Shown here: piece by piece, positions 1 through 20,338 of the stretch
Layout of the letters: each line of letters opens with the position of its first letter
How positions within the stretch are numbered: position 1 is the stretch's first letter
From: an uncultured Alphaproteobacteria bacterium
Lineage (GTDB): Bacteria > Pseudomonadota > Alphaproteobacteria > UBA3830
Reading direction: 5' to 3'
Assembly (NCBI GenBank): GCA_905233775.1
Contig: CAJOEB010000005.1
Span: 1-20,338, forward strand
Length of the DNA: 20,338 nt
The notes under the pieces: model-generated
The model's database searches: none
Told to the model about the DNA's origin: nothing
The model's input: only the letters and a program-made list of their open reading frames with translations
Made by a program: the position numbers and the translations under genes

Positions 1-680
1 AAAGTTTATCTGATGATAAACACATGTAATAAGTAACCGTTCATCACCGTCTTTTTCGCATATCAAATCAGGATGCATTTCTTTTACTTGGTTTAGTGAA
101 CAATTATAGGTAATAAGATTACTGTTGAACATTCCGTTTTCAAAAAATGATCCTCCATTACCGGTATCAAAACCACAGTAATAATGTTTATAACTATCCT
201 GATTTTGTCTTTTTACATAATAAAAATTTGCTCTATACAATATTCCTAATGGATGAGGATGAAACATAGAATTATCATAAAACAAATTCAAACAACTGGC
301 ATATACTGCTCTGCTTAGGTCTTGTCTTGTTAGTTGCTTATCCGTTCTTGTGTTACTTAGCTGTTGAAGCATACTCGCAAGCAAATACGCTGATGCCTTT
401 AGTTTGTTCTGTAACTCATAATAACGATAATGATCGCAAGCAAACAGAAGCAAAATTACCAAAATCGGTATCGAAAACGCAAATTCGATGAGGATACCAC
501 CTAAATGGCCACAATATAATATAGAATTATCACATAAAGACAGTCTTCGAAAATAGCTGAGAAAATATTTGAATATCCGCTTACAATATCTTGATAGCCT
601 CTTATATAGTAGTCCTACTACCCCCCCCCGTAGGCACTCTTATTCCTGTTAGAGAATGGTTTGAATGATGTTATTAACAT
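1..680 (-). CDS. TadE-like pilin family, copy 1 (poly-G switch OFF; 3' end beyond window)
   Basis: The ATG at 680-678 follows AAGGAG (spacer 13 nt, rather long). It opens a 20-codon leader ending in Tyr-Gly-Gly-Gly and then TAG at 620-618, directly after nine G (621-629, seen as C on the plus strand). One extra G would keep the frame open to the window edge with no stop. In that frame a hydrophobic, basic segment leads to Gly61, Glu66 (Gly then Glu at +5, as in prepilin peptidase substrates) and the motif IEFAFSIPI, matching the N-terminus of TadE-like pseudopilins. Further on are ASCLN and HPDLIC, shared with copies 2 and 3. The leader differs from copies 3 and 4, but the 51 nt after the tract match copy 4 at 49 positions. 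It is divergent to copy 2. The function (extracellular minor pilin or adhesin) is inferred. As read, the gene makes only a 20-residue peptide. Confidence 0.72.
621..629 (-). repeat. Homopolymer G9 (C9 on plus strand) in codons 18-20 of copy 1
   Basis: Nine consecutive C on the plus strand encode three Gly codons on the minus strand, followed at once by the in-frame stop TAG. Ten or seven G would open the downstream frame. Tracts of this length are known slipped-strand mispairing sites in phase-variable genes of other bacteria. Confidence 0.9.
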
Positions 681-888: not shown

Positions 889-917
889 ATAGAAAAAGAA
901 TAAAAAGGAGATTATTT

Positions 918-1710
918 ATGAAAAAGTATTTGACAGGGGGGGGGTAATCACTGTTTTTTCCAGAAAAATTTCAACAATAAGATTTTAAAATGTAAAAAAC
1001 TCGTTATAAATCTCATCAATTCATATTTCAAAAACCAATCTTATACAAATACTATCTATGATAACTTCATTCGAAAACAAAATATTGGAAGTATCCTCAT
1101 TGAATTTGCTTTTAGTATTCCGATAATTATAATACTTCTGCTATTTGCTCATGATCATTATCGCGTTTGCGAATTGAGGGATAAAATAAAAACATCAACT
1201 TATCTTGCTGCCAGTATAATTCAACAAATTAGTAATACAAAATCAGATAAACAAATAAAACGAACTGATTTAAGAAAAATTTTATACGCCAGCTGTCTGA
1301 ATTTTTTTCATACAAATAGCGTATTCAATCCATGGCCATTAGGATTATATGCACTAATAAACTATTATTATGTAAAAAGGATTGATAGTGATAACTATCA
1401 GCTTCAAACTTCATATAATTCAACAAGTGGAGGTACTTCTCCAACAACTGTATCAGGAAGTTGTTATTCTGTATCGGCTAATAACACACATTCCGAAATT
1501 TCCGCAATACATCCCGATCTTGTTTGTAGTAAAGATGGTGAAGAACGCCTATTGATTAGATACACATATGTAGCGGCAAAAAACACAACACAATCAAAAT
1601 TAGGATTTTTTATTTTGAATATCGGTTCAAAAGATGCATGGAAATATCTATTTTCATATGATTTAGTTATTACACCAAAACCCGGACTTTTTCCTGCAAA
1701 AAACAACTAA
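918..1710 (+). CDS. TadE-like pilin family, copy 2 (poly-G switch OFF)
   Basis: AAGGAG (905-910), a 7 nt spacer and ATG at 918 give a strong start. Six codons later nine G (936-944) run into TAA (945-947), so the gene reads as a 9-residue peptide. Removing one G (or adding two) opens a 263-codon frame to the stop at 1710. It is open before the only internal start, a TTG at 1174, which lies after the membrane segment. In the open frame there is a basic leader of about 57 residues, then Gly57 with Glu62 at +5, the TadE-like motif IEFAFSIPI and a hydrophobic helix to about residue 77. Next come ASCLNFF, a variable Ser/Thr/Gly-rich middle, HPDLVC and a C-terminus with ITPKPGLFPAK. The whole 1174-1710 segment is free of stops, which argues against simple decay. 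It needs the opposite shift from copies 1, 3 and 4. Its role as a surface pilin is inferred. Confidence 0.72.
936..944 (+). repeat. Homopolymer G9 in codons 7-9 of copy 2
   Basis: Nine G preceded by TTGACA and followed by TAATCA. The zero frame gives three Gly codons and TAA. Eight or eleven G would open the downstream pilin-like frame; ten G leads to a TAA within about 15 codons. Confidence 0.9.
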
Positions 1711-18396: not shown

Positions 18397-18560
18397 AAAA
18401 AATACGGCGTGCCTGGTAACCGTTAGCTGGGATCTGCGTGTGACCAGTATCCCAGGTGGGCACCACGATATACCGACCACGATCGATACAGAGGCAGTTC
18501 CCTTTCTTTTAAATAGGCCACCGAGATTAATACTAACGTATCACCACGCTATCGCCATAG
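18397..18560 (-). ncRNA. Candidate structured RNA (~160 nt), family not identified
   Basis: A GC-rich island (18405-18555, about half GC) sits in a spacer of about 20-25% GC and has no ORF. Its ends pair: GCGT (18407-18410) with ACGC (18546-18549), GGT (18415-18417) with ACC (18543-18545), and CGTTAG (18421-18426) with CTAACG (18533-18538). Inside are a hairpin of 10 bp (CTGGGATCTG 18427-18436 with CAG-T-ATCCCAG 18445-18455) and a second arm closed by GGTGG (18455-18459)/CCACC (18518-18522). The strand is set by a promoter-like pair at 18566-18593 and by T6 (18402-18397) just after the closing stem, both on the minus strand. Size and layout (closing stem, arm, side hairpin on the 3' strand) recall 6S RNA, but I cannot match its conserved sequence. 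It lacks the SRP RNA GGAAGCAGCC loop. Confidence 0.55.
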
Positions 18561-18808: not shown

Positions 18809-18873
18809 TAAGGAGATTTTTATGCGATTGTTATTCAAACAGCTCTATCAGAACACCTACGGGGGGGGGTAGT
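18809..18873 (+). repeat. 65 bp leader cassette, identical to 19896-19960
   Basis: This block contains AAGGAG, a 6 nt spacer, the ATG, 13 leader codons (MRLLFKQLYQNTY), G9 and TAGT. It is identical base for base to 19896-19960 ahead of copy 4. Sequences on both sides differ, so it behaves as a mobile or converted 5' cassette. Confidence 0.9.
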
Positions 18874-19555
18874 CAGTATTCTTTTTCGGCAAATACTTGC
18901 TGCATTTCGTTCGTTTAATCTCCACAATAATTATTCAGGCAGTGTTCTTATCGAATTCGCTTTTTCTATTCCTATCCTTATTTCTTTACTATTTTTTATC
19001 AACGATCATTATCGTTTCTATGAATTAAAAGAGAAAATAAAAGCTTCTGCATACCTGCTTGCGAGTATGATCCAACAAATAAAGAATACAAAATCCGATA
19101 AGCAATTAACAAAAAATGATTTATATTATGTAATATATGCAAGCTGCCTTAATTTTTTTCATAACAATACAATGTTTAAACCGTATCCTCTCGGAATTTA
19201 TTATTGTGTAGATCTACATTATGTAAAAAGAGAAGATTCCAACAGTTATCAATACTACTATTATCGCTTCAGTACTGGAGCAGGAGGAACTACATTTTCT
19301 ACCGGAATGTGGAGTAGATTACAATCTTCAGGAACAAAGTCTTCTGCTGACATAGAAAAAATACATCCCCATCTTCTCTGCAGCAAAAATTACGATGAGC
19401 GTCTATTAATACTATGCGCTTATGGTACTACGGTCAATACAAGACCACATAGATCAAAGTTAGGCTTTTTTATTTTAAACCCAAACTATTATTCTAATTT
19501 CCAATACAAATTAGTTATTACTCCAAAACCTGGATTGTTTCCCGCTAAATTTTAA
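18822..19555 (+). CDS. TadE-like pilin family, copy 3 (poly-G switch OFF; full length)
   Basis: AAGGAG (18810-18815) precedes ATG at 18822. The zero frame stops at TAG after 16 codons, directly behind G9 (18861-18869). One more G gives a 244-residue protein ending at 19555. In that frame a 40-residue leader ends in Gly40, with Glu45 at +5 and IEFAFSIPI starting a membrane helix (to about 61), as in TadE/prepilin-type subunits. The exported part has ASCLNFF (Cys109), a Tyr/Ser/Gly-rich variable middle (about 140-178), HPHLLC (Cys187) and the conserved tail KLGFFILN and ITPKPGLFPAK. The two cysteines are also in copies 1 and 2 and could form a disulfide. The first in-frame ATG after the tract (19067) lies beyond the membrane helix and would not restore export. 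The surface pilin role is inferred. Confidence 0.75.
18861..18869 (+). repeat. Homopolymer G9 in codons 14-16 of copy 3
   Basis: Nine G between CCTAC and TAGTC. The zero frame stops at TAG; ten or seven G opens the pilin-like frame; eight G leads to TAA about 18 codons further on. Confidence 0.9.
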
Positions 19556-19611
19556 ATGTTATTTGTTTGTCCTAAATTTACTGAGAAATAAGAAAATATA
19601 AATTTGTAGTA

Positions 19612-19708
19612 TAATAGATCTCTTGCGAAAGTTATTTTAGGCATTTTTTGTATACTGATAATCAGCGTCTTCCAAATGCTATTTTCGACTTTCGCAAGAT
19701 CTCTAATG
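19612..19708. repeat. ~96 bp palindromic element, good copy
   Basis: The left end TAATAGATCTCTTGCGAAAGT and right end ACTTTCGCAAGATCTCTAAT are inverted repeats around a centre with ACTGATAATCAGCG and CTTCCAAATGCTATTTTCG. Centre and length match the copy at 8228. It lies between copies 3 and 4; the rest of this spacer (19556-19908) is AT-rich with no other gene seen. Confidence 0.8.
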
Positions 19709-19895
19709 ATTATAAAAAAATAAAAGAATCAATCAATTTAAAACTATTCTGATTATTTTTATTCTATTGATTGAAAAGAAAATCTAATATAGTTGTTCGT
19801 TCTTCTCTTATCAAACAATCACCATACCGAAAAATAATGGTATTTATTATTACTTTGTTAAACTTTTTCAGAAAAAATTACATATATCATTTAAC

Positions 19896-19960
19896 TAAGG
19901 AGATTTTTATGCGATTGTTATTCAAACAGCTCTATCAGAACACCTACGGGGGGGGGTAGT
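19896..19960 (+). repeat. 65 bp leader cassette, second copy
   Basis: Identical to 18809-18873: ribosome binding site, ATG, 13 leader codons, G9 and TAGT. The preceding sequence is unrelated, so the identity is confined to the translation start and switch. Confidence 0.9.
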
Positions 19961-20338
19961 AGGCCTACTATATAAGAGGCTATCAAGATATTGTAAGTGG
20001 ATATTCAGGTGCTTTTGTCGCCATTTTCGAAAATTATCTTTATGTGGTAATCTATATTATGGTCATTCAGGGGGTATATTAATTGAATTTGCGTTTTCAA
20101 TACCGATTTTAATTAGTCTTTTATTTTTTCTCTGTGATCATTATCGAATTTATGAACTAAAAGATAAAGTAAAATCATCCGCATATCTTGCTGCGAGTAT
20201 GATACAGCAATTAGGAAACACAAGAACAGATAAACAACTACGAAAAAGTGATATAGCCAACATAACATATGCCAGTTGCCTCAATTTCTTTTATACAACG
20301 TCTATGTTTAATCCTTGGACGCTCGGTCTATTCTTTGT
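19909..20338 (+). CDS. TadE-like pilin family, copy 4 (poly-G switch OFF; 3' end beyond window)
   Basis: AAGGAG (19897-19902) precedes ATG at 19909. Sixteen codons end in Gly-Gly-Gly-TAG (stop 19957-19959). With ten G the frame stays open to the window edge. It gives a basic, Cys-containing leader (KRLSRYCKWIFRCFCRHF), then Gly55 with Glu60 at +5, IEFAFSIPI, a hydrophobic helix, and ASCLNFF. Leader and switch are identical to copy 3, while the 51 nt after the tract match copy 1 at 49 positions, so the gene is a mosaic. The frame is open upstream to about 19771, but that region lacks a ribosome binding site and is AT-rich spacer. The role is inferred as for the other copies. Confidence 0.7.
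19948..19956 (+). repeat. Homopolymer G9 in codons 14-16 of copy 4
   Basis: Nine G between CCTAC and TAGTAGG. As in copies 1 and 3, ten or seven G opens the pilin-like frame. Confidence 0.9.
19957..20007 (+). repeat. 51 bp post-tract block shared with copy 1 (570-620, minus strand)
   Basis: The block starting TAGTAGG and ending GGATATTCA is 49/51 identical to the minus-strand sequence right after the tract in copy 1. Similarity then drops until the IEFAFSIPI region. Confidence 0.85.

Follow-up and report, generated by a model that had tools for sequence, protein, structure and literature searches.

How a pilin-like gene might be expressed when its ATG leads, through a run of Gs, straight into a stop codon is the question raised by the 20,338-nucleotide stretch of DNA analysed here (the window). 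The preliminary description had claimed that four genes in the window share one layout, and this layout is present: an ATG and a leader of 6–17 codons are followed by nine Gs and an immediate TAG or TAA, and behind each tract lies a TadE/TadF-like frame that is open and out of register with the leader (Table 1). Genes 1, 3 and 4 carry the pilin body in one alternate frame and gene 2 in the other; genes 3 and 4 have identical leaders (MRLLFKQLYQNTYGGG, then stop), and genes 1 and 4 are truncated by the window ends. The ribosome binding site described for every gene is found as AAGGAG 5 to 8 bases ahead of the ATG in genes 2, 3 and 4, whereas in gene 1 the match is weaker because the motif lies 13 bases away. 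Apart from the four G9 tracts, the window has no run of G or C that reaches seven bases; overlapping G7 matches number 12 where dinucleotide shuffles give 0.09, and under a first-order model 0.003 G9 runs would be expected per window. Upstream of gene 3 (18415-18500) there is also a G+C-rich intergenic stretch in AT-rich surroundings, possibly structured, and between genes 3 and 4 (19620-19703) an inverted repeat (cttgcgaaagt ... actttcgcaag).

Table 1. Features of the four tract genes in the window, with the basis of each assignment.
Feature	Position	Strand	Basis
Gene 1 leader (MLITSFKPFSNRNKSAY), ATG at 680	630..680	-	sequence
Gene 1 G9 tract, TAG directly 3'	621..629	-	sequence
Gene 1 TadE-like body frame, continues past window end	1..620	-	homology + frame
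AAGGAG 5' of gene 2	905..910	+	sequence
Gene 2 leader (MKKYLT), ATG at 918	918..935	+	sequence
Gene 2 G9 tract, TAA directly 3'	936..944	+	sequence
Gene 2 TadE-like body frame, alternate frame differs from genes 1, 3, 4	945..1710	+	
AAGGAG 5' of gene 3	18810..18815	+	sequence
Gene 3 leader (MRLLFKQLYQNTY), ATG at 18822	18822..18860	+	sequence
Gene 3 G9 tract, TAG directly 3'	18861..18869	+	sequence
Gene 3 TadE-like body frame (P0001)	18870..19555	+	homology, Pfam, structure model
Gene 3 codons of prepilin-peptidase-like site G/S, E at +5	18938..18943	+	alignment A1
AAGGAG 5' of gene 4	19897..19902	+	sequence
Gene 4 leader, same as gene 3 leader, ATG at 19909	19909..19947	+	sequence
Gene 4 G9 tract, TAG directly 3'	19948..19956	+	sequence
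Gene 4 TadE-like body frame, continues past window end	19957..20338	+	homology + frame

The four genes belong to a much larger set. The source genome (G000; 1,207,836 bases in 220 contigs, 83% complete) contains 69 runs of eight or more Gs (59 G9, six G10 and four G8) against about 1.5 expected from the dinucleotides of the window, in keeping with the earlier view that such tracts do not arise by chance. The guess that further copies exist genome-wide is also borne out, with 50 homologous matches to the gene 3 protein P0001, of which 36 are pilin-like copies with a tract ahead of the recognised motif; the rest, where fetched, are contig-end fragments or degenerate. Tract length is nine in 34 of the 36, ten in one and eight in one. 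One copy has a broken leader, and among the 35 with a usable ATG leader none has the body in frame, 27 using one alternate frame and 8 the other, where free switching would be expected to leave a third in frame (p = 7e-7, paralogs being treated as independent). Other tract genes of this genome are in frame in 7 of 19 cases and out in 12 (a hand count in which C53:4233 is doubtful and some mid-gene in-frame tracts may be ordinary glycine codons), and their difference from the pilin set (Fisher p 2.8e-4) indicates that G9 is the usual length of all tract genes, while the uniform out-of-frame state belongs to the pilin set alone. A combinatorial ON/OFF repertoire, as proposed in the preliminary description, is therefore not what is seen: no mixture of ON and OFF loci occurs in the pilin set, and with every classified copy OFF a default-OFF, rare-ON arrangement fits better.

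A separate start for the body, after or inside the tract, can be rejected for G000. No start codon in the body's own frame with a recognisable ribosome site was found in any of the 36 copies in G000; in register with the body, an ATG, GTG or TTG precedes the tract in 4 of 36 and lies between tract and motif in 7 of 36, none with a ribosome-site match. The corresponding figures in the congener G004 are 17 of 26 and 15 of 26, again none with such a match, and some G004 copies may have a weak alternative start. Absent mismatch repair was likewise rejected as a cause: both MutS and MutL are found in G000, a point that tells against the phase-variation reading, and each occurs in 15 of 16 genomes. 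The TTGAC that precedes many tracts was considered as a −35 box and rejected as a general one, since a scan yielded one good promoter-like case, outside the pilin set (C33:3449, L082), in which a G9 lies in the spacer of TTGACA - 15 bases - TATACT. This is possibly a transcriptional poly-G switch of the kind at Neisseria porA.

Several other tract genes of G000 deserve description in their own right. Two homologous-looking outer-membrane-type genes carry paired tracts (C1:7734 and 7883, L072; C53:2295 and 2499, L078), the second tract lying 149 or 204 bases upstream of the start-site tract; the C1 protein has no Pfam match. An FkbM methyltransferase fragment (PF05050; C66:552, L053) is broken at a G10 tract, and signal-peptide proteins lie out of frame behind a leader and G9 at C90:3576 (L057) and C99:176 (L059), one of them with leucine-rich repeats (PF12799). 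At C57:4683 (L050) a leader and G9 precede a 606-residue open frame with a pseudopilin-like N-terminal stretch, whose product gave no Pfam match and is perhaps TadG-like.

The name TadE-like is fair: P0001 itself falls below the Pfam cut-offs (TadE E 0.013, TadF 0.025), but its relatives L196 and L102 lie above that for TadE and L100 above that for TadF. Alignment of 15 sequences (A1) shows G23 and E28 to be invariant, and in 52 sequences E28 remains so and G23 is conserved in at least 90%. Their spacing is presumably that of the prepilin-peptidase processing site (G/xxxxE), and a long hydrophobic helix follows the motif. The structure model of P0001 (mean pLDDT 91.7, pTM 0.83) consists of a single long helix (22-73) together with a head rich in strands; a fold search with this model returned no pilin match and no solved structure matching well. 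Because the tract lies upstream of the prepilin-peptidase-like site, it falls in the part predicted to be cut off, and its glycines would be absent from the mature subunit. A Tad locus is present away from the window, on C48 (L370), with genes for a secretin, CpaD, a ParA-like CpaE, a TadA-type ATPase and T2SSF.

Codon-position analysis shows that the out-of-frame bodies are under purifying selection. Per-site differences at codon positions 1, 2 and 3 are 0.39, 0.29 and 0.55 in G000 (30 copies) and 0.33, 0.25 and 0.53 in G004 (26 copies), with a dN/dS of 0.33 in the sole close G000 pair and 0.08–0.14 in four G004 pairs. The bodies are open across 100 to 300 codons, so the decay by random stops that would have told against a switch has not taken place. 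Leaders in G000 differ by 0.57, 0.64 and 0.62 at the three positions, with no third-position excess; this measure gives no sign of coding constraint in the leaders, which weighs against the phase-variation reading. The segment just after the tract is mixed in G000 (eight close pairs, dN/dS 0.15–0.33 in four and 0.68–1.21 in four) and mostly constrained in G004 (8 pairs out of 32, 0.07–0.34 in seven and 1.73 in one).

Homologs occur in 33 of 60 related genomes, with counts of up to 31 in G004 and 13–14 in a few others. The records bearing them come from red deer, roe deer, goat, water buffalo and other gut or rumen MAGs, and the relatives are labelled Alphaproteobacteria or Holosporaceae; a scan of named genomes with P0001 alone as query gave no match, and no phage or viral-contig relatives of the family were found. 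The 30 stretches fetched from G004 comprise 27 classified tract copies, a tract-less copy that is in frame (L138, with relatives P0016 and P0123) and two without the motif. None of the 27 has an open leader-to-body frame, as 23 use one alternate frame, 3 the other, and one, nominally in register, meets a stop 12 bases past the tract; like the absence of in-frame copies in G000, this falls well short of the one in three that free switching would give, and counts against phase variation. Four copies in G007 are all out of frame, and in another genus the leader MKWFAKKVFD precedes the same G9 with the pilin in the other alternate frame.

In-frame copies do exist elsewhere. Further relatives include 4 in frame among 43 tract copies with a scored start (8 copies without a scored start and 18 without a tract being set aside), and in 120 listed relatives from a second genus the leader is in frame in 17 (18 with P0188, missed by the regular expression), some of them with an interrupted tract; 36 have the nine-G out-of-frame form, and the remainder start elsewhere. 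G028 is distinguished by long tracts, with 47 runs of G10 or more against four G9 and three G8. Those fetched from it (L246-L265) are mostly G10–G15, 12 being the commonest, and pseudopilin leaders are in frame in some (L246, L262) and not in others.

Close alleles provide the more direct comparison. We compared fetched copies with 34 listed public proteins that are at least 90% identical and reach the tract region, inferring the public tract lengths from the protein letters; four rows were dropped (P0056, no tract; P0025 and P0032, ambiguous; P0069, interrupted), leaving 30 informative pairs. Tract length is the same in 24 and differs in six, whose aligned bodies are 98–100% identical: P0004 and L134 (99.1%), P0047 and L154 (100% over 235 residues), P0063 and the source genome's own C64:2332 (98.8%), P0212 and L362 (99.2%), P0231 and L241 (98.1%), and P0233 and L238 (100% over 278). 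Two of the six are ON/OFF contrasts. In L362 one frame runs from the ATG across eight Gs and on through the complete pilin to its stop, and P0212 is the nine-G out-of-frame form; P0047 is in frame and L154 is not. Neighbouring paralogs in G015 (L271), with identical leaders and the same flanks, likewise differ, the G10 copy being in frame and the G8 copy out. Neighbouring near-identical copies in L341 (RUG13554) have tracts of 10 and 9. As near-identical copies in relatives differ in length and are sometimes in frame, the G runs look like slip-prone on/off switches, with at least eight Gs between start and body, a length that sets the body frame, and variation of that length between alleles, as the phase-variation reading of the preliminary description would have it. 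A length difference in any single pair is possibly a homopolymer assembly miscall; an artefact of the whole set can be rejected, given 69 tracts with one layout and G9 in independent assemblies.

We therefore consider it probable that the family is a paralogous set of TadE/TadF-like minor pseudopilins subject to slip-strand phase variation with a default OFF state. Translation of each gene would begin at its single ribosome site and ATG and cross a poly-G tract that lies within the leader peptide, ahead of the point where prepilin peptidase is predicted to cut, and gain or loss of Gs by strand slippage during DNA replication would shift the body into or out of the leader frame. The default is taken to be OFF because no classified G000 copy with the modal nine Gs has its body in frame; each gene would then be one short slip from ON, and cells would express few or no pilins at once. 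Export would presumably pass through the Tad apparatus encoded elsewhere in the genome, leading to display at the surface, where variability might bring an advantage, perhaps towards a protist host. Replication slippage with nine as the OFF default accounts well, in our judgement, for how the genes are laid out, for the differences between alleles and for the selection on the bodies. We are more tentative about the further step, which is possible and somewhat short of probable, that the set is a default-OFF stochastic display library, in which evolution has arranged dozens of pseudopilin bodies such that the most frequent tract length leaves them all out of frame, and slippage turns on just one or a few at a time. 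The lack of in-frame copies in G000 may mean that display is rare, that selection acted in the populations sampled (a MAG being a consensus sequence), or that slippage occurs in RNA rather than DNA.

Slippage of this last kind is the alternative that survives best, and is nonetheless unlikely. RNA polymerase, or the ribosome, would slip on the nine Gs and produce an in-frame fraction without any change in the DNA, and selection would fix the length at nine. An RNA–DNA hybrid is about nine bases long, and this reading suits the 34 G9 tracts among 36 in the G000 pilin set with no copy in frame, as well as the prevalence of G9 in G004 and in another genus. It would lead one to find invariant lengths between close alleles, but length differs in a fifth of them, the six pairs out of 30 described above, and between paralogs too; tracts of ten or more predominate in G028, with few of eight or nine, and bodies lie in either alternate frame (27 and 8), which one ribosomal shift would not serve.

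Less likely again is a silent cassette library, whose out-of-frame copies would supply sequence, through recombination, to the few copies that are expressed, as pilS does in Neisseria. In its favour are adjacent copies (C5:18861/19948 and C10:10286/11389) whose 57-base leader blocks are 96% or 93% identical and whose post-tract sequence is unrelated, and the tract-less in-frame copy in G004, with its two relatives. Yet each silent copy retains a ribosome site and an ATG, for which a donor has no use, and a tract-less intact copy is absent from G000 among the stretches fetched. Leader similarity is weakly correlated with post-tract similarity (r 0.23, p 0.0005 in G000; r 0.10, p 0.13 in G004), and is uncorrelated with body similarity; the two body halves, used as a control, are themselves uncorrelated (r -0.08 in G000, 0.02 in G004), and because this control failed the statistic yields no conclusion on module shuffling. 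Least probable of all are decaying pseudogenes, an expansion frozen by frameshift and now being lost, for which the lack of in-frame tract copies in G000 and G004 and a few broken copies (leader in C7:1064 and C66:6850, body in C7:14701) might speak, but against which stand the long open bodies, their low dN/dS and the in-frame alleles of relatives.

If replication slippage does operate here, a poly-G switch drives the family that has more tracts than any other in a 1.2 Mb alphaproteobacterial genome, acting on Tad-type subunits from a place in the part probably cut off from them. A display library, if true, would have its switch hidden in a disposable leader peptide, and would amount to an antigenic or adhesive variation system in a lineage presumed to live alongside protists of the rumen and the termite gut. 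As the relatives are gut and rumen MAGs, the family also offers a way to look at how the surface varies in probable symbionts of protists. With the OFF state uniform, the question is whether display is rare and selected against, or produced by slippage at the RNA level.

TadE and TadF, the minor pseudopilins of Tad systems, are usually encoded by one or a few genes adjoining the tad locus. The present family resembles the Tad (Flp) TadE and TadF proteins (PF07811, PF16964) in its N-terminal hydrophobic motif with E at +5 and in the presence of a Tad locus in the genome, and differs in consisting of dozens of scattered genes with a tract in each leader. Among the titles listed by a search of the openly accessible journal literature, none concerned this lineage or TadE switches; the earlier remark that no such switch is known in an alphaproteobacterium may stand for TadE-like subunits and is too broad for homopolymer switches, as mononucleotide contingency loci, badE among them, are described in Bartonella (PMC11466379). 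There too homopolymer indels switch a surface adhesin in an alphaproteobacterium, but the loci are trimeric autotransporter adhesins with mostly A/T runs, and include neither Tad pseudopilins nor a large paralogous set. The sortase-dependent pili of Bifidobacterium breve, for which a G-tract replication-slippage switch has been shown, are closer in design (PMC9187656): a G run within the first of the pilin genes lies between the secretion signal and the body, its length decides expression, and in this gut commensal the reference length is OFF with a fraction of cells differing. That system comprises two loci of sortase pili in an actinobacterium with tracts of 11–12, whereas here at least 36 paralogous TadE/F-like genes with a mode of nine are found in an alphaproteobacterium. 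Campylobacter phasomes (PMC6321876) likewise have many poly-G tracts per genome, mostly in reading frames, with a peak at nine (53%), but these are spread over many unrelated genes whose ON fraction is near neutral drift, while in the present genome a single family predominates and shows no ON copy among those classified. Animal pathogens are the best-known bearers of poly-G contingency genes, and the family described here is notable for its scale and for its uniform OFF state; what is new is a default-OFF repertoire: none of 35 classified copies is in frame in G000 and none of 27 has an open leader-to-body frame in G004, against 7 in frame among 19 other tract genes.
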